Under the pieces are notes generated by a model, which was not told where the DNA came from, did no database searches, and worked only from the letters and a program-made list of their open reading frames with translations. Below are positions 2,764-29,579 of a DNA stretch of 30,443 bases, in pieces; positions within the stretch are counted from its first letter, which is position 1; each line of letters starts with the position of its first letter. Source of the stretch: Schoenoplectus triqueter (taxonomy: Eukaryota; Streptophyta; Magnoliopsida; Poales; Cyperaceae); the NCBI GenBank assembly GCA_964058805.1, contig CAXKVV010000677.1, forward strand, positions 1 to 30,443. The letters run 5' to 3'. A program made the translations under genes and the position numbers.

Positions 2764-3139
2764 ATGCTATGGTGCTTCGCGAAGCAAAAATTTTTTTTTG
2801 CTTCGCGTCCGTATCTCGAATTTAAAAGTTTAAATGGCCGATCCAAACCGTTGAGCATCATCTTCATATTGAAAAATCCTTGGAGATCAAATTTTATATT
2901 TTTTTGAATTTTTTTTGATATTTTTTAGATGGGTACAAAGTCGCTTGTTTTGGATGGTGCAGAAATCTTTAGATCAACAAACTTTGTACCCATCTAAAAA
3001 ATATAAAATTTGATCTCCAAGGATATTTCAATATGAAGATGATGTTCAACGGTTTGGATCGGCCGTTTGAACTTTTAAATTCGAGATACGAACGCGAAGC
3101 ACAAAATTTTTTTTGCTTCGCGAAGCACCATAGCATTAC
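2761..3139. mobile_element. Palindromic (foldback) element, copy 1, in TA microsatellite
   Basis: The element starts GTAATGCTATGGTGCTTCGC and ends with the reverse complement of that sequence. It is one long imperfect palindrome: left-arm words such as GAGATCAAATTTTATA and AGATGGGTACAAAGT recur reverse-complemented on the right. A unique loop of about 35 bases (CGCTTGTTTTGGATGG...) sits at the centre. Each terminus carries the small palindrome GCTTCGCGAAGC. The right arm lacks about 20 bases that copy 2 retains. Rice Micron elements are also known to sit in (TA)n tracts; kinship to Micron is only an analogy here. Confidence 0.75.
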
Positions 3140-3149
3140 TCATATATAT

Positions 3150-3556
3150 GTAATGCTATATATATATATATATATTATAAGCAAAAAAATTTTTGTGCTT
3201 CGCGTCCGTATCTCGAATTTAAAAGTTCAAACGGCCGATCCAAACCGTTGAGCATCATCTTCATATTGAAATATCCTTGGAGATCAAATTTTATATTTTT
3301 TTGAATTTTTTTGTTATTTTTTAGATGGGTACAAAGTCGCTTGTTTTGGATGGTGCAGAAATCTTTAGATCAACAAACTTTGTACCCATCTAAAAAATAT
3401 CAAAAAAATTCAAAAAAATATAAAATTTGATCTCCAAGGATATTTGAATATGAAGATGATGTTCAACGGTTTGGATCGGCCATTTGAACTTTTAAATTCA
3501 AGATACGGACGCGAAGCACAAAAATTTTTTTGCTTCGCGAAGCACCATAGCATTAC
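3150..3556. mobile_element. Palindromic (foldback) element, copy 2
   Basis: This is a tandem second copy, 10 bases after copy 1, with the same loop, arms and ATAGCATTAC right end. Its left terminus keeps GTAATGCTAT (3150-3159), but the next bases, which should be GGTGCTTCGCGAAGC, are replaced by a TA tract. That suggests microsatellite expansion or slippage inside the element. Both copies share the same arm asymmetry (GAGCATCAT on the left, ATGATGTTC on the right), so they descend from one already imperfect palindrome. Confidence 0.75.
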
Positions 3557-3580
3557 TCTATATATATATATATATATATG

Positions 3581-7549: not shown

Positions 7550-9180
7550 ATGCCACTTGTTAGACCCATATCCAAATAGTGTTTCTAGTAGTAGTAACCC
7601 AATCTCAGCTAATATCCCAGTCTAGAGCAACCCACAAACTGTCCAAAATTAAAATGATGAAGATGAACAATGGCATACGGATATCAATGATAATACATAT
7701 GGGGTAAATATAGAGGAAATAGAGGAATATAATGATGTTGAAAATATTATACGTAAATGATGTTAGTCGATTCCTTTTACTAATCGGGAAATGGGACACC
7801 CGTGTACCCAGTTCAATGACGGTTAACCGTTTTCGTATGCTGATGAGTCATTTTATCATAAATCAACACGGATCGATGAACAATTTGATGAAGGACAACA
7901 ATTTAAGTTGAAAACATAATTAAAAACCAAACTTGCTGAATTTCATATGGAACTTGATGTACAAAAGAGTAATGAAAGTGTTTACATTGTGACATGTAAG
8001 AATCTCAATTGTCCATGGAGATTATATGCAAGAGCCCTTGTAAATAGTACTTATGAAGTTTCGATGAATCCATTTCAGCACACATGTTATGGACATGCTA
8101 TCAAAAGGAATCATTGTGAAATGACTATCAGAATTATTACGGGTCTTATCAAACCTCATTTGCGTGATAACTTGGATATAAACCATATCACACAAGAGGT
8201 TTGGTGAAACAAAAATTTCTCACTGAGGCTGTATCATACAATAAATTATGGAGGAGGAGAGAACTTGCTCACTTCTTTGCTAACTTTCTCACCGAGGATG
8301 TGTCATATAAGTTTTGGGAGTTGGAAGAAGTAATATGAAATGCTCACTTATTTATTAAATATCATACAAAATATCACGCTAGGTACTAAATTTAGACCGG
8401 AACGGGAGCCATCAACCAAGTTTAGAATTGACTTTTTTTACCGTGTAGTATGGGCATATAGCCCTTACATTCAAGCATGGCCTCATCTTCGACCAGTAAT
8501 AAGTGTCGATATTGATTTTCTATCCGGTAGGTATGCTGGTAAGTTGTTCATGGTTTGTGCATATGATGCAGACCAACGACTCTTATCGCTCACCTTTGTA
8601 GTAGTTGATGAGGAATTAACACACAATTGGAGGTGGTTTATGAATTTATTGCAAACTGAGGTGGTTGGACCAGAAAAAATAATAGTTATTTCTGACCTAC
8701 ACCTAGCAATCAGAAGTGTGTTCGAGCAACCTAACTTAGGGTGGTGTGAAACCACAAGAGAAGACATTCATAGATTTTATTCGTAATATATTGCACAAAG
8801 CGTGTACAAACATGATCCAAACAAATTATTGGGACTCCGGGGTGAGATTAAGTACGAGATACATTTAATTAGAGAAGGACAAGCCAGATGTCAGTGCTAG
8901 AAACCACAACTAACTAGTTTTCCTTGTGATCATGTGCTTGATATATGTTCATTCAGAAGGCTTGATTCAAAATAGTACATCAATCCATATTATGCACTGA
9001 AATCATTCATCAACACTTGGTCCGGTGTCTTTAACAGTTATGGAAATCCACGAGTCTAACAAATGTATCACGATGCAACTATCGGACCATATCCGACAAA
9101 AAAACAAGGGTGGAATGAGAAAGGTAAGAATTCTAATGGTAATAGATGAAATGGATGGTCAGATTAGTAGGCTTCCGAGT
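7550..9180 (+). pseudogene. MULE (MuDR-type) transposase pseudogene
   Basis: One reading frame carries all recognisable parts in family order, interrupted by many in-frame stops. An acidic N-terminal stretch (about 7650-7750) comes first. The Mutator DNA-binding domain follows at 7900-8205, with the signature CPWRLYARA and HTCYGH. The MULE transposase core (8400-8770) shows RPVISVDIDF with the first catalytic Asp, then AYDADQRLL, NWRWFMNLL and VISDLH with the second Asp. A SWIM-type zinc finger (8880-8930) shows CQC and then PCDHVL. Between the core and the SWIM finger about 150-200 residues expected in the family are missing, including the third catalytic acid, so an internal deletion has occurred. 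Stops lie at 7746, 8205, 8784 and 8898, among others. The element ends were not located. Confidence 0.85.
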
Positions 9181-13915: not shown

Positions 13916-14076
13916 CCAGTCTCTCCTTTCATTCCTTTCCCTACCTCTCTCACCTCTCCGATCTCTGAAAAGCCTCTCTAACTTTTCATCTCTCCCTCCC
14001 TCTCTCTCTCTCTCAATCAACAAAACACCAACAAACAAAGCACTAGCGCTTGAAGCAAGAACAAAAGCCCTCTTCA

Positions 14077-14388
14077 ATGGCGACCAGACGCATGTCTAGC
14101 ATGTTCTACTGCGACACAGTAGAGTATGACTGCGGGACTCACTACTTCCTCGATTCTTGTTCTCTCTGCAAGAAGCCCCTCTCCAAGAACAAAGACATCT
14201 TCATGTACAGAGGAGATGCGCCTTTCTGTAGCGAAGAGTGTAGGCAGGAGCAGATTGAGATCGACCAAGAGAAAGAGTTCAGAAGAAAACACAGAAAGAG
14301 CGTAGGCAAGGTGGCAAGCAGGGATTTGAAACAGAGGCAAGAAGAGTGCGATGCCAATCAAAGAATACCTGTTGTGGCTGGTTGGTAG
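14077..14388 (+). CDS. FCS-like zinc finger (FLZ) domain protein
   Basis: The product has 103 residues. The FLZ domain (DUF581) spans about residues 22-67: [14 protein letters not shown], then [20 protein letters not shown]. The zinc ligands are Cys28, Cys31, Cys51 and Cys55, and the family hallmark FCS is present at 50-52. FLZ proteins are plant-specific and are known to bind the SnRK1 energy-sensing kinase as adaptors. The ATG at 14077 (CTTCAATGGCG) is the first in frame after the TATA box; the frame extends upstream without an ATG. Outside the domain are a short cysteine-containing N-terminus and a basic, coiled-coil-like tail (residues 60-90) ending RIPVVAGW. It is complete, reads without an intron, and is short for the family. 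No particular subfamily is assigned. Confidence 0.92.
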
Positions 14389-18404: not shown

Positions 18405-18420
18405 CTGCCTTGATACCAAT
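18405..18420 (-). other. Possible reverse-transcription primer-binding site
   Basis: On the minus strand the sequence reads TTGGTATCAAGGCAGCC. Its TGGTATCA equals the first eight bases of the usual initiator-methionine tRNA primer site of plant LTR elements (TGGTATCAGAGC), then it departs. It lies a few bases from the repeat domain at 18430, which would then be the end of a minus-strand LTR. Confidence 0.35.
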
Positions 18421-18429
18421 ATATTTGTT

Positions 18430-18690
18430 TGTGTGCGACCCTTTTTCGCGCGCTCCGCACCGCCGCTGGGCGATGGAATGCGGAAGAAGGACACGGAGAT
18501 CCCTCCCGAGCGTGCATCTGCTAAGTGCCGGCTGATTCTGCCGTTTAGAGAGATTTGGATGCACATTCAGGGGGTTTTTAGTGATTGTGAGTTCTTGTAG
18601 ATTCCAGTGGGCGCAAGCCCCCACCGTTAATTACCCTGGGCTACTAACCTCGAGGCACCTCTGGATCTTTGAAAGGGAGAAGCAAATAGT
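18430..18690. repeat. Structured direct-repeat domain, copy 1
   Basis: It shares its whole length with 29261-29511: TGTGTGCGACCCTTTTTCGCG, GCGGAAGAAGGACACGGAGA, GGGCGCAAGCCCCC and TTAATTACCCTGGGCT. Two inverted repeats are visible: GTGCATC (18512) with GATGCAC (18558), and CAGTGGG (18605) with CCCACCG (18620) around CGCAAGCC. It may be the end of an LTR on the minus strand (primer-site-like sequence at 18405-18420). Identity as part of an LTR is inference. Confidence 0.7.
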
Positions 18691-18735
18691 ATAATTAAAA
18701 GATGGTCAAGTGGTCGTCTAGGTCAATTCCAAGGA

Positions 18736-18885
18736 AGACGAACCTACTACAGATCGGTTCAGTCTTTACCGCTTCAAGAAATAACCTTACTACAGATCAG
18801 ATTAATCTCTTTGAAGGGGTTCGAGGTGAGTCTACTACAGAATGACTCGACCTCAGTTCATCTAGAAAATGAACCTACTTAATCC
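18736..18885. repeat. Hairpin array, higher-order unit 1 (H1-H4)
   Basis: H1 (18736-18765): AGAC/GTCT outer, GAACC/GGTTC inner. H2 (18778-18809): GAAAT/ATCTC and AACCT/AGATT, one mismatch in each. H3 (18823-18854): GAGGT/ACCTC and GAGTC/GACTC, perfect, with a bulged G. H4 (about 18866-18885) keeps GAACCTACTT but has lost the rest of the loop and the 3' inner arm. Loops of H1-H3 are TACTACAGATC, TACTACAGATC and TACTACAGAAT. Confidence 0.8.
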
Positions 18886-18891
18886 TATGGA

Positions 18892-19053
18892 AGACGAACC
18901 TACTACAGATCGGTTCAGTCTATACCACCTCGAGAGATAACCTTACTACAGACCAGGTTAATCTCTTCAGAGGGGCTTGAGGTGAGTCTACTACAGAACG
19001 ACTCAACCTCCGTTGATCTAGAAGATAAACCTACTACAGAACGGTTCAATCTT
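18892..19053. repeat. Hairpin array, higher-order unit 2 (H5-H8)
   Basis: This is a 156-bp-shifted copy of unit 1. H5 (18892-18921): AGAC/GTCT and GAACC/GGTTC. H6 (18934-18965): GAGAT/ATCTC and AACCT/AGGTT, repairing both mismatches of its partner H2. H7 (18979-19010): GAGGT/ACCTC and GAGTC/GACTC, with a bulged A where H3 has G. H8 (19022-19053): AAGAT/ATCTT and AAACC/GGTTC with one mismatch. Loops: TACTACAGATC, TACTACAGACC, then TACTACAGAAC twice. Confidence 0.8.
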
Positions 19054-19076
19054 AACTAGTCAACAACCAATCACAC

Positions 19077-19266
19077 AAAATACAACTCGAAGCACTGAGC
19101 CGGTTGATCTTGAGGTTGGTGAATCAGGAGAAGGGTGGATATGGCCCACGTGTTTCTTCTCACCGATCTTCTAGATCATGAATTCGAAGCACTAAGCCGA
19201 TTCATAAACCTAGGAAACACAGTTACACATAATGTCAAACCTGAAGCACTAAGCCAGCTTAACATT
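19077..19266. repeat. Second hairpin class, loop CGAAGCACTRAGCC (H9-H11)
   Basis: H9 (19077-19111): CAACT/GGTTG inner, AAAAT/ATCTT outer with one mismatch. H10 (19178-19205): ATGAATT/GATTCAT, 7 bp including one T-G pair. H11 (19231-19266): AACCT/AGCTT inner with one mismatch, AATGT/ACATT outer. The 14-base loop is near constant (CGAAGCACTGAGCC, CGAAGCACTAAGCC; the third lacks the first C), while all three stems differ. Confidence 0.7.
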
Positions 19267-19279
19267 GAGGCATGTGTTA

Positions 19280-19357
19280 GTGAAGGAACCTACCTACAGA
19301 ACGGTTCACATTCACTGTTTTGTGGATGAATCTACTACAGAACGATTCAATCTCACA
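19280..19357. repeat. Hairpins H12 and H13 of the TACTACAGAAC class
   Basis: H12 (19280-19315): GTGAA/TTCAC outer, GAACC/GGTTC inner, loop TACCTACAGAAC with one extra C. H13 (19321-19357): TGTG/CACA, GAT/ATC and GAATC/GATTC with a bulged A at the usual place and a second bulged T; loop TACTACAGAAC. Confidence 0.75.
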
Positions 19358-19377
19358 ATCTCGGGAGATGAACCAGA

Positions 19378-19408
19378 AGACAAACTCATCAACGGATGAG
19401 TTCAGTCT
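19378..19408. repeat. Hairpin H14 with short AACG loop
   Basis: AGAC/GTCT outer, AACTCATC/GATGAGTT inner (8 perfect pairs), loop AACG. The outer clamp is the same as in H1 and H5, although the loop sequence is different. Confidence 0.7.
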
Positions 19409-19423
19409 TACTAGCTTAAATAG

Positions 19424-19995
19424 TCATGAATTACTTGTTCATGACACCGAGTCATTAAGATGTCACTTCTCTCGGACATCGTAATGTTCATATCTCTTGG
19501 AGTCGACATATCTCTTCACGTCGATGTCGCAGCCTTGGTCATTCTTCAGCGAGCGTCAAGATGTTCTTGTCCCGACTAATCATTCTATATGTTGCATTAC
19601 TTGTGCAAAATTACTATGTTGCCCTACACCCCTTGTGTGAGCGTGTTTAGTCATGAGTTACTTGCTCATGGTAATGAGTCATTAAAATGTCACTTCTCCC
19701 GGACATCGTAATGTTCTTCTTCTTCAGAGTCGACATATCTCTCCATGTTGATGTCGCAGCCCTGGTTATTCTTCATCATGCGTCAAGATGTTCTTGTCTC
19801 GACATATCTCCTCATATTGCTATCGAAAGCCTCAGTTATTCTTCATCAAGATGTTCTTGTCTCGACATATCTTCTCATGTTGCTGTTGCAACCTTGGTTA
19901 TTCTTCGTCAAGATGTTCTTGTCCTGACTAATCGTTCTAAATGTTATATCATGTGTGCAAACATCCTCATGTTGCTCCACACCCCTTGTGTGAGC
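19424..19995. repeat. 227-bp tandem repeat made of hairpins
   Basis: Two main units (from about 19424 and 19651) correspond at a fixed 227-bp offset. Paired words inside include CATGAA/TTCATG (19425) against CATGAG/CTCATG (19652), both around TTACTTG; GATGTC/GACATC (19459, 19475); CGACAT/ATGTCG (19504 and 19731); CAAGA/TCTTG around TGT (19557, then three more). In the second unit the CGACATATCTC...CAAGATGTTCTTG part is further amplified at about 61-68 bp. Open frames across it (19687-20193) merely translate the repeats. Confidence 0.75.
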
Positions 19996-20095
19996 AATGA
20001 GCATATTTGTAAAAAAGCTTATTGCATAATATCTTTCATTATTATCTCTATTATAAAGATGAATTTATTTATTATTTATTATTTTTTTTTATTTT

Positions 20096-20480
20096 TAAAC
20101 TCTATTTATTTCTATAGAAAATTATTTACAAAAATAATAGGAAATGGGTTAGCTATTAACTATAATTTTATTTATATTTTTGGGATTTTATAATAGCTAA
20201 AATAGTAGAATTTTATTTTTATTATTTCTAAACTCTATTTACTTTGTAAAAAAAAAATCACTTACAAAATAATGGAAAATAAAATGGCTATGATTTTTTA
20301 TTTGTATTTTTAAAATATTTATAATAGCCAAAGTAATGGAATTTCATTATTATATTTCGTTATGTTGAAACATTATTCATTATGTAAAAATTATTTACAA
20401 ATCAAAAAAAGGATGAATTAGCTATATTATTTTTATTTTTATTTTTATTTTTAGGATCTATAATAGCTAAAAAGAAATTA
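20096..20480. repeat. AT-rich ~135-bp tandem repeats with inverted arms
   Basis: Three diverged units, each with ATTATTTACAAA-like and GGGAT/GGATC words and an inverted pair. Unit 1: TTAGCTATT (20149) with AATAGCTAA (20192). Unit 2: TGGCTAT (20285) with ATAGCCA (20334). Unit 3: TTAGCTAT (20418) with ATAGCTAA (20463). The A-T pair of units 1 and 3 is a G-C pair in unit 2. Confidence 0.6.
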
Positions 20481-21250
20481 TTATTAATATTCTATCCTAT
20501 TTATTATAGTTTTCATTATATTTTTTTTATTATTTCTATTTATCATCTATAGAAAAATATAAGATTTTTTATTATTATCATCATTATTTGAAAATAGCCA
20601 TAAGGGATGGAATTCATTATATTCTTTATTACAACTATTATTTTTATTGCATTTTTATCCATCAAAAATATTTTATTGTATATTTGTATAGAAATAACAA
20701 AAGAAATGCAATTCATTTTATTATAAAACTATATTATCATTCTTTATTATAGAAGAAAATGCATTTACTATCTATTACCATGGTTGTATATATTTTTGTA
20801 TATTTTGTGCTATTTATTTTTATTATATTTTTATTTTTTACAGAAAATATTAACATAGTCTTTATTATTGTTTATTTTTATTTATCAAAGAATAGAGCTA
20901 ATCTCATTATTTATTATTGCATATTACTATTGTCATTATTATCTCATGAAAAATCACTTGAAAAATCAGTAAAGTATATCTAATTATTATTCATGATTTT
21001 ATTTGAATTTTTGGAATTTTTATAGTATTTAAAATGACAAGTCAAAGCTAAGTCAAATATATCAATATATGTAATATCTTTTGCTTTTAAATTGTTTCAA
21101 CATGATTATATTTTTAAAACTGGAATATTATTATATAGAAAAATAGTATGAAAAATAAGAAAATTTTAGAAACAAATTTGAGTTAATTTGGAGTTCAGGA
21201 GCATTTTTAAATAATTTATTTATTATTTAATTTTAATATTCTGTTATTAA
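20481..21250. other. Very AT-rich DNA
   Basis: Further diverged copies of the preceding repeat may continue (AATAGCCATAAGGGATGG near 20590). The open frame at 20759-20983 is a low-complexity, AT-driven translation. No gene recognised. Confidence 0.45.
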
Positions 21251-21480
21251 CTTAATGGGCTTTAATTGGAATGGGCCGAGTTTATTCATTTATTTATTTC
21301 CTTATTTTTCTGTGAATAAGCCCAATATGGTGACTGGGCCGGCTCCTTTTATTTTAGTTCTGCTATTAATATGGGTCGTTGGATTGTGCCAAGATTAGTG
21401 CAGAATTTTATTTAAATGTTTAGATGTGTTTGGGCCGTTAGATTTAATTAAGATGAGTGTTTAATAAATCTAAGGCCCAG
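21251..21480 (+). promoter_or_regulatory. Promoter-like stretch with several TGGGCC words
   Basis: Words of the plant site II type (TGGGCC or GGCCCA) or close to it occur at about 21275, 21325, 21337, 21431 and 21474. Such clusters are common in plant promoters of housekeeping genes. An exon-like ATG follows at 21621. No TATA box was identified. Confidence 0.3.
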
Positions 21481-21620
21481 ATCTATTCTTATTTAAATTT
21501 CCTTAACTCCTGACAAATCTCATCCGCTAATAATCTCTAAAGATTAGTGAACGCTTCAATAATCGTGCAAAGGAGATCCTCTCAGTCTCCATCTTCCCGA
21601 TGCGTTAAGATCTGTGCTGG

Positions 21621-21688
21621 ATGGCGTTCCCGGCGACCGGAGCACTCCTTTTCCGATCAGATCAGCGACTTAGCATCGTCTCACTTTG
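21621..21688 (+). CDS. Possible first coding exon, unknown protein
   Basis: ATG begins a short frame MAFPATGALLFRSDQRLSIV, which ends in TTTG followed by GTGAGC, a good plant splice donor; the frame stops at once if not spliced. It is GC-rich against its surroundings and follows a TGGGCC-rich stretch. No downstream exon could be joined with confidence, and no family is recognised. It may be a dead gene start or part of a repeat. Confidence 0.22.
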
Positions 21689-21745
21689 GTGAGCTTTTCT
21701 GTGGTTCTTGATCGGAAATCCATACGGTGGTAGAAGCTATACTAT

Positions 21746-22125
21746 GGTACCGAATTGAGATGCATCACTTGGCATCGGTACCGAATTGAATTCTTACCAA
21801 TTTAGATCAAATTAATCGAAATTCTTGACAATTACGGGTTTGATAAGCATCATCTTGATATGTTATTATGATTTGAAGCGATGATGCAAGACCATCTCAC
21901 CATTTGTCAGTATACAGTACCGACTGGTACCGAGTTGCTTTTCTTACCAAATTCAATAAATTTAACCAATGTTATTGATAATTGCAAGATCATTAAGCAT
22001 CGCCTTAGTATGTAAGTGTAATTTAGGATGAATGTGAGTGATTTTATTCACAAATGATCGTGCTACAGCACTGTCAATTGGAGATTATGCAATACCGACT
22101 GGTACCGCCTCAATTCCTCTCCAAT
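21746..22125. repeat. Diverged tandem repeat of ~170-180 bp with TACCGACTGGTACCG
   Basis: Three starts at about 21746, 21913 and 22092 share (A/G)TACCGA(C/A)(T)GGTACCG followed by TTCTTACCAA-like or CTCTCCAA-like text, ATTGATAATTGCAAG and AAGCATC. Each start is an inverted repeat: TACC and GGTA around GACT in units 2 and 3, GTACCGA and TCGGTAC in unit 1. Unit 1 also holds GCATCATC (21847) with GATGATGC (21880). Confidence 0.55.
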
Positions 22126-22163
22126 TTGAGATGCTTATTGAACTCACACCTTTGATTGCTACT

Positions 22164-22216
22164 TCTCAGGCCAAAAGGCTCACCCAGGCACTGCTGGGGC
22201 CAGTGGCTCGCTGAGA
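22164..22216 (-). ncRNA. Two-fold-symmetric structured motif, copy A (candidate RNA)
   Basis: Read on the minus strand: outer stem TCTCAG/CTGAGA, then CGAGCCACTGGCC, an inner hairpin (CCCAG/CTGGG with a 6-base loop), then TGAGCCTTTTGGCC and closure. The core contains two copies of YGAGCC-N3/4-GGC, so it can fold either as two small GCC/GGC hairpins (a four-way junction) or as one rod with symmetric YGA bulges. The transcript direction is assumed from the minus-strand TATA box at 22876. Confidence 0.5.
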
Positions 22217-22456
22217 TAACAGTTGATTCAATTCCGAAATCCTAGCGATATACTGACTTATACCAGAATTAGTGTATTACAAAAGGAATTAACTAACCTA
22301 TTCAACTAGAACTATGCAATTAGAATGTCAAAAGGTAAAAGTCATCACTTTTCAGTTATTGCATGGATATGAGCAAGAAAACCGATTGAAAATTAAAAAT
22401 CACAAAGAAATTAATGCAATAATAGTTGAATTACAAGTTTTTGATGTTTGTGACTG
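22217..22456. other. DNA between motif copies A and B
   Basis: AT-rich single-copy-looking sequence. I see no gene or repeat in it. Confidence 0.4.
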
Positions 22457-22512
22457 ATCTAGGCCTAAAGGCTCGCCAATTAGTTTGTAATTGGGCCAGT
22501 GGCTCACTAGAT
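22457..22512 (-). ncRNA. Two-fold-symmetric structured motif, copy B (candidate RNA)
   Basis: The core is as in copy A, with the outer stem ATCTAG/CTAGAT and the inner hairpin CCAATTA/TAATTGG around a 5-base loop. Both stems differ from copies A and C yet pair fully, while the core YGAGCCACTGGCC and YGAGCCTTTAGGCC is unchanged. Confidence 0.5.
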
Positions 22513-22721
22513 ATAATCAATTAATACTAGATGTAACTATTTAAAAGGAGAAACAGTAAAGAAACAAATGAAAGAAGCAAAATTTGCAAAGGGAGAAAGC
22601 AAGAATGAAGAAAGAGGTTCAATTGACTATCCAACAAATATGAATTGAATGTTTTAAATTCAATTTCAGAGAAAGAATACAAAAGAAAACATCAATGAAC
22701 TAATGAACATTATCAATTACC

Positions 22722-22884
22722 TTTTTATTCTTGACAGAAAAGATAAATTGAGCAATCTCTCTTCTAGCTATTCACTCTCTCTCTCTCTTGTTGACTAGGA
22801 AAGTGTATGTGAGTGTATGTTCTTGATCTTAATTGCTCTGCTAATGGATTCCCTTCTACTGTTGCTGGATTTCTGTTTATATAG
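22722..22884 (-). promoter_or_regulatory. Minus-strand promoter and leader-like segment
   Basis: On the minus strand AGCCTATATAAACAG (TATA box at 22876-22883) is preceded by AACCAATCGCAATTGG, a CCAAT-type setting. It is followed by a purine-rich leader with an AGAGAGAGAG tract. At 22722 the text AAAAAG is followed by GTAATTG, a possible splice donor. Motif copies B and then A lie about 365 and 660 bases downstream of this TATA box. No coding exon was recognised, so this may be the promoter of a mobile element. Confidence 0.4.
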
Positions 22885-23126
22885 GCTAGAACCGGCCAAT
22901 TGAACCCAATTGCGATTGGTTGAGTGCCTTCCACCCGGATTGCCACCTTGGATACATCCATACCCTTCAATCTACTTCAATCAACGGCTAAGATGGGTTT
23001 GTGTTTGTTGTGGAAATCGCCTAACTGTTTTCTGTTATGGTTTGACTGTGCCGTGATTTCATTGACTCATACTCTCCAATTACTGATGCAGCTCAACTGA
23101 CAAGCGGGCCCGAGGCTATTACTTGC

Positions 23127-23134
23127 TATTTAAA
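23127..23134 (+). promoter_or_regulatory. Possible TATA box before the ORF at 23464
   Basis: TATTTAAA within GCTATTTAAACACTCC. It is followed by about 300 bases of C- and T-rich, leader-like sequence up to the ATG at 23464. Confidence 0.4.
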
Positions 23135-23463
23135 CACTCCACGACCACTCTGACTGCTGCTTCACTCATCCACCAATTCCAATTTCACTGAATCCATTTC
23201 TGCCCCGCTTTCTTCTTTTGATCAATTGGCATTTTACACCTTGAATTGCCTCACCAATTCACCTCAATCGGCGTCGCCTTGCCCTAAAGGATCTAACTTG
23301 CCGTGCGATTTGATCTCCATAGCGTCAATTCACCTCTTCTTATCAATTCAATTTCCGGTAATAACTCGACTTCGCCTTTTGTTCATCTATTTTCACCTGT
23401 TGATTTGGTAGCACCTATCATCCGATCGCCTAATCATCACCACTCGTTAGATCGTCTTCAATC

Positions 23464-23629
23464 ATGGTGAGGCGTCAAGGGAAACGGAAGGCGCGAACTT
23501 TGCTAGGATCGGACAATGGCGAGAAGAAGAGGGAGGGAGAAGGCTCTTCGACTGGTTTGGGTGCACATGGCGCGCGTGATCCAAAGCGCAGAGGAGAGGA
23601 GGAGCAGCGGCATAGAGCTCATGCACCAG
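23464..23629 (+). CDS. Hypothetical basic protein, possible first exon
   Basis: ATG in good context (AATCATGGTG) starts MVRRQGKRKARTLLGSDNGE, then a Lys-, Arg- and Glu-rich stretch ending RHRAHAP. The composition is very different from the AT-rich neighbourhood, and the clustered basic residues would suit a nuclear or nucleic-acid-binding protein. CACCAG followed by GTTTATCC at 23629/23630 is a plausible splice donor; unspliced, the frame would run to a stop at 23685 (73 residues). I do not recognise the family and could not find a second exon. It could be the beginning of a transposon protein. Confidence 0.35.
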
Positions 23630-23921
23630 GTTTATCCCTTTCTTATTCTCCTTTTAAATTCAGCTGCGTTGAACTGAATGAATAGGCTATACAGACTTGG
23701 TTCATGGCTTAACTATGCGTCTCTGTTTGCATCTCTGACTGTTGGGCCCCACTTGTAAGATTTACTGAGTCTAAGCTTATAGTAATGGATTAGTGATTAA
23801 TTAGTGCATGATTAGGGTTAATTGATACGATTTGGCATGATCTGATTGGCTCATTAGTTTAATCACCTTCCTTTTATCTCTGATTATTCACTAACTGATG
23901 CTGAGGTGGCCTTATAATATG

Positions 23922-24147
23922 GTGCCATGTGGCACAGGGCTGGGTGAGATGGCCTTCTCTGGCTGTGCCATGTGGCACAGAGAGGGTGAGGTAGCCCTGT
24001 GGTGTGATGCCATGTGGCACTAGGGTGATGAGGTGGCCCACTGGCTGTCTGCCACGTGGCACTGAGGTGGGGCCCACCTGTCAGTGACTCATACCAGGGT
24101 GGGGCCCACTTGCTGACATGGCCCAATGAGAGGCTGCCACGTGGCAC
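23922..24147. repeat. 42-bp minisatellite of G-box-like palindromes
   Basis: Perfect or near-perfect palindromes GTGCCATGTGGCAC occur at 23922 and 23965, ATGCCATGTGGCAC at 24007, and CTGCCACGTGGCAC at 24049 and 24134. Starts are 43, 42, 42 and 85 bp apart, so one unit (near 24092) lacks the core. Between cores is text of the type GGGTGAGGTGGCC. The last two cores contain CACGTG, the G-box bound by bZIP and bHLH factors. GTGGGGCCCAC words lie at 24068 and 24100. Confidence 0.8.
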
Positions 24148-24510
24148 ACCCTCTCTCTTCGCTTATTTTATACCTTCTGTGTTTCTTGCATGGTTAGGTG
24201 GTTGCTCACAGCTTTGGCACCAGGTCAGCCTTGAAAGCAAAATCACATTTGAAATTTTTCATGACTAGTTGTATCAGAATACTAGCTTGGCATTGACATC
24301 ATTTCATGTAGCATAGGGATTATACTGCTTCAGCTCCTTTCTAGGGTTTGCTATAGTGATAGATTCTCAGGGTTCAATTCTGACTCCTTTAACAGGTCAC
24401 TGAGGTGTGGGCCCACCTGTCAGTGAAAAATGGTCACATGGATGACCCATCAGATAGGCTAGGTTTATGTTGTTAGATCCATCTACAAGGGACTGCCAGG
24501 TGGGTCCCAC
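24068..24510 (+). promoter_or_regulatory. Repeated GTGGGNCCCAC-CTGTCAG words
   Basis: Copies lie at about 24068, 24100, 24406 and 24493 (GTGGGGCCCACCTGTCAG, GTGGGCCCACCTGTCAG, GTGGGTCCCACTTGTCAG). This word is frequent in monocot promoters and contains TCP-type GTGGGNCC in both directions. No gene start follows closely. Confidence 0.4.
24191..24350. repeat. Left arm of a long inverted repeat (with hairpin F)
   Basis: It matches the reverse complement of 27015-27175 at roughly 80% by eye. Shared words include GGTTAGGTGGTTGCT, AGCTTTGGCACCAGGTCAGC and CTTGAAAGCAAAATCA. Hairpin F (24197-24221) has GGTG/CACC outer and GCT/AGC inner stems. Confidence 0.7.
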
Positions 24511-25230
24511 TTGTCAGAAAAGATATAATCACATGGTGACACCCGAGAGATCTCCTCTCTCCCTCGATCCTCTCGGCTGTCACTCATGCTGAGTGAATAG
24601 AGAATGGTAGGGTATTTATACTCTTCACTTCATGCCCAAAATTCCGTTGTGGGACTAATGGATTCATTCCGGGGTTAAGCAGCGACCTTTTCTGATTAGT
24701 GGGCCATCTTTCATTGCTTTCTCTTCTTCCCTCTTCTTATGATTTATCATTAATCATCAATTTATTTTCATTTATTCATCTATTCATCCTTGAAATCTTT
24801 CAAGGGTAAACAGTTTGGTATCTAAATTTTGAGGCAGATAATTAAATCATTTCTCTTTCTTTAAGTTTACATATTAGTCTATGGATAATGCTAAACCTTT
24901 CGGGGCGGCTTCCAATTAATTAGTCATAATTTATCTTATCATTTAATTATCTTGTGACTTTTAAATCATTTGGGCCTTTATTATTTTAACACTAATCTTA
25001 TTTAAGCTTTTAATTTAATTATCGACCAAAATGAACTTTATTCTTCTTAGCTACTGATTATTAAGAATGAGCCTAATCTCTTTTATTAATTTCCTTAATA
25101 AATTTCTAATTTTTGTTAAAGGCCCAGCCGACCCAAGTGTAAGTTCTTTCTCTTAATGAATTTATTTGGGCCCACTCAACAATTCCTTTATTAAATTTTT
25201 AGCCCAACAAAAATATCATCCAAGCCACAA
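24351..25230. other. Spacer of the long inverted repeat, part 1
   Basis: It includes an inverted pair CCGAGAG/CTCTCGG near 24543-24575 and a minus-strand TATA-like word (TATAAATA, near 24617). The rest is AT-rich with some GGCCCA words. No coding frame supported. Confidence 0.4.
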
Positions 25231-29260: not shown

Positions 29261-29511
29261 TGTGTGCGACCCTTTTTCGCGCCCCTCACCGCCCTGAAAA
29301 AGGAACTGGACGATGAATTGCGGAAGAAGGACACGGAGATCCCTCTAAGTGTGCATTGGGATATATTTATATAAATTTGGAATGCACATTTAAAGGTTTT
29401 AGAGATTGTGGGGTCTTTAAGATTCCAATGGGCGCAAGCCCCCATTGTTAATTACCCTGGGCTTTGAACCCGAGGAACCTCTGATTAAGAAAGAGAAAAT
29501 AAACAAAATAG
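29261..29511. repeat. Structured direct-repeat domain, copy 2
   Basis: Homologous to 18430-18690, in the same orientation and about 10.8 kb away. Its inverted pairs are GTGCATT (29351) with AATGCAC (29381), and CAATGGG (29426) with CCCATTG (29441) around CGCAAGCC. Compared with copy 1, both partners of several pairs have changed. No primer-site-like sequence lies beside this copy. Confidence 0.7.
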
Positions 29512-29579
29512 TTAAGCAATTTTAAGCGGTCGCTGTGAGTAAGGGCATGGAATATATGGACTTTTCAAGATAGTTTACA

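Follow-up and report, generated by a model that had tools for sequence, protein, structure and literature searches.

A tandem array of hairpins with covarying inner arms and a nearly constant loop in the long terminal repeat of a plant retrotransposon

Introduction

LTR retrotransposons make up a large share of many plant genomes and, to our knowledge, how they choose their own RNA is poorly known. The packaging signals of retroviruses and Ty1 offer one parallel, and consist of a few hairpins that are unlike one another. A signal of this kind is expected to bind Gag specifically, to be required for packaging and to stand in the leader of the genomic RNA, between R/U5 and gag. In the parts of the literature available to us they are described as cis-acting RNA bound by Gag, lying in retroviruses near the primer binding site. 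Plant LTRs can also encode structured RNA, as in retrozymes with their LTR-borne hammerhead ribozymes. In Tat elements the primer binding site is complementary to a non-Met tRNA and stands just after the 5' LTR, and the Ogre subclade has an intron between protease and RT and an ORF1 upstream of gag. The available portion of one source gives RH, aRH, INT as the domain order in Ogre and Retand, the Tat elements of angiosperms (PMC6317226). According to the available part of another, the hypervariable tandem repeats of these elements are situated downstream of the coding sequences and are variable in both sequence and monomer length; in that part of the account conserved pairing and the word 'hairpin' are absent (PMC7004042). 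CaMV, a plant pararetrovirus, is a reverse-transcribing element with a long structured 5' leader, and tandem repeats of one hairpin are not mentioned in the part of the account available to us (PMC12786077).

Here we describe an array of tandem hairpins in a 30,443-nucleotide stretch of Schoenoplectus triqueter DNA, the whole of which we call the window. Like the Tat/Ogre repeats of the 3' UTR, which are sources of satellites, it is a short array of variable copy number within Tat-clade elements; it differs from them in lying inside the LTR, near the primer-binding side, and in keeping paired arms and a nearly fixed loop.

Results

The array lies in a solo LTR

The stretch from 18432 to 24812 is flanked by GTTTG and lacks an internal region, and we therefore read the window copy as a solo LTR (Table 1). 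Its end at 18432 is shared by most copies compared from the source genome; a few alignments overrun it by 1 to 12 bases, one starts two short, and in some diverged or cut copies the alignment begins further inside the LTR. The other end, 24812, was set by comparison with both LTRs of a second copy, C2081 (297025-303285 and 317940-325005, the latter with extra sequence), which has the target-site duplication (TSD) GCACT on both sides. The C2081 element is about 28 kb long, with LTRs of 6.3 and 7.1 kb and a 5-bp TSD, and its LTRs are 99.6% identical over 3.3 kb and 96.6% over a further 1.7 kb. LTR pairs standing about 21-22 kb apart are 99.6% identical over 3.3 and 2.5 kb aligned.

A near-identical LTR pair, TG...CA ends, a short TSD and an integrase placed after RT/RH are together those of a Ty3/gypsy LTR retrotransposon. 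In the C2081 copy the Pfam domains Retrotrans_gag, RVT_1, RT_RNaseH, RVT_3 and rve are all encoded on the strand that corresponds to the minus strand of the window, which we therefore take as element sense. One open frame of this copy holds RT_RNaseH (5-108), RVT_3 (178-290) and rve (470-567); a second RNase H, of the archaeal type for which we take RVT_3 to stand, is thus found between RH and INT, the arrangement that distinguishes the Tat clade. On this domain evidence the window LTR belongs to a Tat-clade Ty3/gypsy retrotransposon. The likeness to Ogre and Retand covers the RH-aRH-integrase order, the lengths of the LTRs, the 5-bp TSD and reversed frames beyond the integrase. In the C2081 copy the latter are a pair of neighbouring open frames, 248 and 225 amino acids long (L095:564-1988, +), without Pfam match. 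The gag frame of C2081, in which a protease match falls under the Pfam cut-off, and its RT frame are separate and about 390 bases apart.

Past 18432 in element sense, 11 of the 32 ends listed continue with GGATC and then TGGCACGCCCGGTGGGACC, one copy differing by a single base. Standing five bases beyond the LTR end, TGGCACGCCCGGTGGGACC looks like a candidate primer binding site. We rejected TGGTATCA at 18411-18418 for this role: it falls in the flanking DNA, beyond the LTR, and the other ends listed do not have it at that place. A search for tRNA genes found none.

The LTR holds other repeats as well: a tandem block at 19421-19933, built of 227-base and 63-base units and containing short palindromes, of which CAAGATGTTCTTG is one, and a GC-rich 42-base tandem repeat (23923-24071). 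The terminus at 24788-24812 contains a palindrome (CCTTGAAATCTTTCAAGG in the window), and so do both C2081 LTRs at the corresponding place. Positions 29263-29515 are a further LTR end (TGTGCGACCCTTTTTCGCG), alike in family type and orientation, with 72.8% identity to the C2081 LTR end; no exact hairpin loop was found between it and the end of the window. The window further contains a 417-base unit in about two tandem copies, 91% matching (2782-3567), MuDR/MULE transposase fragments (7920-8786; Pfam MULE, with DBD_Tnp_Mut just below cut-off) and a frame for an FLZ zinc-finger protein, a member of a plant gene family (14047-14388; Pfam zf-FLZ).

Table 1. Coordinates of the LTR, its target-site duplications and the hairpins of the array within the window
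Feature	Positions	Strand	Remarks
Target-site duplication GTTTG, low side	18427..18431	.	
Solo LTR, Tat-clade Ty3/gypsy (by domain evidence)	18432..24812	-	TG...CA termini TGTGCGACCC...GGGTAAACA; sense runs 24812 -> 18432
T-class hairpin	18735..18766	-	5-bp outer stem, bulged base, 5-bp inner stem, loop of 11 bases
T-class hairpin	18778..18809	-	inner and outer stem each with one G-U pair, element sense (A/C mismatches on + strand)
T-class hairpin	18823..18854	-	
T-class hairpin	18891..18922	-	18735-18766 duplicated in tandem (156-base unit); outermost pair T-T
T-class hairpin	18934..18965	-	18778-18809 duplicated in tandem
T-class hairpin	18979..19010	-	18823-18854 duplicated in tandem
T-class hairpin	19022..19053	-	outermost inner pair G-U in element sense
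G-class hairpin	19076..19112	-	sense loop GCTCAGTGCTT, 2 bp, bulged A, stem
G-class hairpin	19178..19205	-	closing pairs here CG/CG; other copies CC/GG
G-class hairpin	19230..19267	-	two G-U pairs in element sense
T-class hairpin	19279..19316	-	12-base loop; internal loop replaces single bulge
T-class hairpin	19320..19358	-	two bulges, outer stem longer
Hairpin, loop diverged to 12-base CATCAACGGATG	19377..19409	-	outer stem, bulge and inner stem as in T class
Target-site duplication GTTTG, high side	24813..24817	.	

Two classes of hairpin in one array

The array spans 18735-19409 on the minus strand and contains 13 hairpins; in element sense it stands 303-977 bases short of the LTR's 3' end. 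An earlier note on this DNA, made from its letters, had reported nine hairpins sharing a loop. All nine are real and lie at the positions given there: eight have the exact loop TACTACAGA (at 18745, 18788, 18833, 18901, 18944, 18989, 19032 and 19333), and the ninth is the hairpin at 19279-19316. The list was incomplete, having missed a tenth at 19377-19409, in which the loop has diverged and the stem and bulge are kept, and three hairpins of a second class.

Read in element sense, the reported type (T class) has a 5-bp outer stem, an unpaired pyrimidine on the 5' side, a 5-bp inner stem and the loop G(A/T)TCTGTAGTA (11 bases) or GATCTGTT(A/T)GTA (12 bases). The second type (G class) has an 11-base loop, 2 bp, an unpaired purine on the 3' side and a stem of 6 to 11 bp; its loop is AAGCACTRAGC on the written strand and GCTYAGTGCTT in element sense. 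By inspection, its closing pairs vary as pairs between copies, CG/CG versus CC/GG. The single bulged purine that the earlier note placed on the written 3' side in nearly all hairpins is present in most of them; 19279-19316 has an internal loop in its place. Hairpin number varies through tandem duplication of units of 43 to 45 bases and of 156 bases.

Pairing is kept across copies in the source genome

In the 82-Mb source assembly, CTACTACAGAWC has 950 exact matches against 38 for a reversed control. Array counts were made on 89 copies from the same genome, 19 of 929 matches lying outside arrays having been dropped. Between 4 and 12 T-class hairpins with 11-base loops occur in 63 of 69 copies, often in a common order and set around three G-class ones; 6 of the 69 have 0 to 3, and four of these six are short cuts. 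The most diverged copies hold many hairpins without a bulge, with continuous stems of 6 to 8 bp and commonly the inner arms GAACT/AGTTC (27 loci), and 4 of the 27 diverged loci are without the loop at up to one mismatch.

All five inner pairs are canonical, G-U included, in 740 of the 910 hairpins of the reported type, a low figure in that 31 hairpins with a 12-base loop read as 11 are counted as unpaired. The claim that stems stay paired is upheld by these inner stems, with exceptions in the window itself, where 18778-18809 has two A/C mismatches and 19022-19053 one (G-U on the other strand). The opposite outcome, most loops having unpaired flanks, had been named in the earlier note as fatal to its proposal; it did not occur.

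A scan blind to the loop found 365 distinct bulged hairpins, spread over 83 of the 89 copies; dinucleotide shuffling gave 9.8 per shuffle. Each hairpin was counted once, second readings at loop lengths 13-14 being left out. The loop is present in 346 of these 365. With loop lengths of 11-12 only, the count was 343, against 3.0 per shuffle. Among 159 distinct cores chosen by loop and neighbours alone, inner stems are fully paired in 133, compared with a mean of 57 and a maximum of 72 when arms were re-paired randomly (1000 shuffles); outer stems are fully paired in 75, compared with 34 and a maximum of 49 (1000 shuffles).

For 787 hairpins with five Watson-Crick inner pairs we compared four outer-stem models, with loops of 11 or 12 bases and at least 4 outer pairs for the 5' bulge (32 hairpins fit two models). 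A 5' bulge was found in 343, a 3' bulge in 13, no bulge in 32 and a 1x1 arrangement in 24. As many as 407 of the 787 match none of the four, and the inner stem is therefore the firm part of the structure. A few kinds of hairpin do not fit the standard bulge model and were redrawn by hand. On the 5' side the bulged base is T or C in 335 of 343 cases.

Eleven distinct Watson-Crick inner arm pairs occur, together with 40 outer arm combinations having at least 4 of 5 pairs. This diversity bears on a role for the palindromes as DNA, in which they would be LTR enhancer repeats bound by a dimeric transcription factor or extruded as cruciforms. Tandem short repeats in LTRs are often enhancers, and the 1-kb bins of the array are higher in G+C (0.34, 0.42) than their neighbours (0.30, 0.16). 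A dimeric factor, however, should fix the arms and leave the spacer free, whereas in this array it is the arms that vary, the spacer being for the most part conserved, and of all the accounts considered this is the one to which we give least credence.

Inner arms covary beyond descent

Covariation was assessed against a tree-based null in which columns evolve independently on the tree with the number of changes kept equal; the trees were built on short sequences, which makes the figures rough. Total covariation was 2.51, against a null mean of 0.62 and a maximum of 1.18 in 300 runs. Taken singly, pairs were equalled in 0 to 41 of these runs (41 and 38 for two outer pairs), apart from one nearly invariant pair that every one of the 300 reached. 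With 633 distinct contexts, inner pairs 1, 2 and 3 lay beyond 200 of 200 null runs and pair 5 beyond 197 of 200; for inner pair 4, which is almost invariant, 23 of 200 runs reached the observed value, and for the outer pairs 0, 12, 1, 2 and 0 of 200. In a further control the partner was slid by 1 to 3 columns. No slid version attained the covariation of the inner pairs; in pairing, inner pairs 1 and 5 were exceeded. In the outer stems the same control beat 3 of 5 pairs in covariation and 3 of 5 in pairing.

The inner arms thus covary beyond descent, and the evidence for the outer stem is mixed. The proposal that both partners change together consequently holds for the inner stems, with the outer stems divided on the slid-partner control. 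Because inner-stem covariation exceeds the tree-based null, plain repeat decay is rejected as an explanation of the pairing, in agreement with the earlier note.

Another account of the array is a functionless minisatellite, whose paired look was inherited from an amplified palindromic unit. Copy number is variable, the units are tandem duplicates and young copies show no constraint; tandem repeats are, in the part of the account available, common in Tat elements (PMC7004042). Inheritance alone nevertheless does not fit 11 inner arm pairs and 40 outer combinations, nor the result against a descent-aware null, nor a second hairpin class that by inspection likewise changes in pairs, and we consider this account very unlikely.

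Strand, rate and order of changes

Substitutions in the stems comprise 82 W-to-GU and 56 W-to-AC steps in element sense. Unpaired parts of the LTR are biased between strands to a similar degree (ratio 1.34, with 1.11 for the stems in the 34-copy set), so that the 82:56 excess of G-U is matched by that bias, is not significant and was rejected as proof of an RNA strand. Variants at 10-50% within a group, the older ones, stand at 15:9 in stems versus 81:94 in flanks (p=0.19), and rarer variants at 62:48 versus 117:89. In hand-drawn stems, whose drawing assumed RNA pairing, fixed wobble pairs number five G-U and zero A-C in element sense; these lean toward sense RNA, but are few. Folding energy compared strand against strand, relative to shuffles, gave no difference, both strands folding equally well. 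No conserved TATA was found near the array start in the copies compared; a TATTTAA box there was rejected, since among the copies listed only the window copy has it at that place.

Counted over 34 young copies that belong to the family of the window copy, changes per column are 0.42 in T stems, 0.44 in G stems and 0.47 in spacers, with 0.39 in T loops and 0.48 in G loops. The eight T-class bulge positions change faster, at 1.25 per column, and three of the eight vary. These rates are as for dead insertions and give no sign of constraint. Bulges apart, 18432-19450 is slower than the upstream LTR, at 0.39-0.49 against 1.27 changes per column.

Trees of orthologous hairpins contain 4 double compensatory changes versus 138 single steps from Watson-Crick to G-U or A-C. 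The tree of all hairpins contains 252 double changes that keep a Watson-Crick pair (33+113 inner, 23+83 outer), due in part, in our view, to paralogues mixed in that tree. These numbers bear on the possibility that a DNA process, such as hairpin template switching in reverse transcription or replication, copies one arm onto the other and so keeps pairing without function. Retroelements do replicate via single-stranded cDNA, covariation taken alone is compatible with such copying, constraint in young stems is not detectable, and the 252 double changes speak for it, though paralogues are mixed among them. Rewriting should, however, erase the bulge as well, yet the 5'-side pyrimidine bulge recurs, and the orthologous trees, with 4 double against 138 single departures, indicate stepwise change rather than tracts. 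We regard arm-to-arm rewriting as quite unlikely. The earlier note had named an RNA and a DNA reading as possible; RNA now fares somewhat better on the recurring bulge and the orthologous trees, with the 252 double changes and the non-significant strand test standing on the other side.

Discussion

Taken together, the variability of the arms, the near constancy of the loop and the recurrence of a pyrimidine bulge favour a structured RNA. Its most likely identity is an array for multivalent protein binding, of the packaging kind. We tentatively favour, at somewhat less than even confidence, the reading that the array in sense RNA is a row of stem-loops presenting a nearly fixed loop to a protein, probably Gag, which selects or pairs genomic RNA for packaging. 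By its position on the primer-binding-site side, the array would be transcribed within R or U5 of the leader, and selection on this stretch would act on the RNA. The loop would be repeated as a docking site whose predicted partner is the element's own Gag; Gag may be the most economical choice because it oligomerises and must pick RNA. Hairpin number would shift by tandem duplication, and the stems would drift one base at a time with the partner base answering, as in other RNA helices. The 252 double changes, together with the 407 hairpins whose outer stem follows no simple model, place less weight on packaging and more on DNA rewriting.

Covariation fits any RNA role, and the wobble test leaves the strand unfixed. 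The array might accordingly serve in nuclear export, leader translation or strand transfer during reverse transcription, act in an antisense transcript, or offer its loop to a host protein. A plant pararetrovirus uses its structured leader to recruit export factors, according to the available part of one account (PMC12786077). Nothing in the present analysis points to a host partner, however, and one repeated loop would better suit multivalent binding by an oligomerising protein such as Gag. We judge an RNA role other than packaging to be possible, if on balance unlikely.

As a hairpin repeated many times around a loop that hardly changes, it offers a concrete and testable candidate for an RNA-selection signal, and the hundreds of copies in one genome make covariation measurable without reads. 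Were arm-to-arm DNA rewriting the true explanation, the array would instead be a rare natural record of that process.

Searches of Rfam gave no match at gathering score for the whole window or at E up to 1 for 18432-20100, and two single matches in a scan of viral contigs were taken as chance. In the open-access literature, the loop, LTR-end and primer-site sequences matched two works, on other subjects judged by title. No description of covarying hairpin arrays in Tat or other LTRs was found in the parts of that literature available to us, which is weak evidence of novelty. The earlier note had known of no plant element like this one; the hairpin array alone looks undescribed, but the surrounding LTR, which the note had missed, is of a known plant retrotransposon clade.

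Where the packaging signals of retroviruses and Ty1 are few and unlike hairpins, the array repeats one hairpin design 4 to 12 times in most copies, and here binding by Gag is predicted. A bolder and rather unlikely extension is that the array is a multivalent RNA tag of natural origin, with which a giant plant retrotransposon would mark its own RNA for Gag. Such a tag would present as many as a dozen near-identical loops in a row that can expand, on stems that drift freely while covarying, and its hairpins would fall into two classes, each with its own loop; their number would be adjusted by tandem duplication, much as in engineered MS2 arrays.
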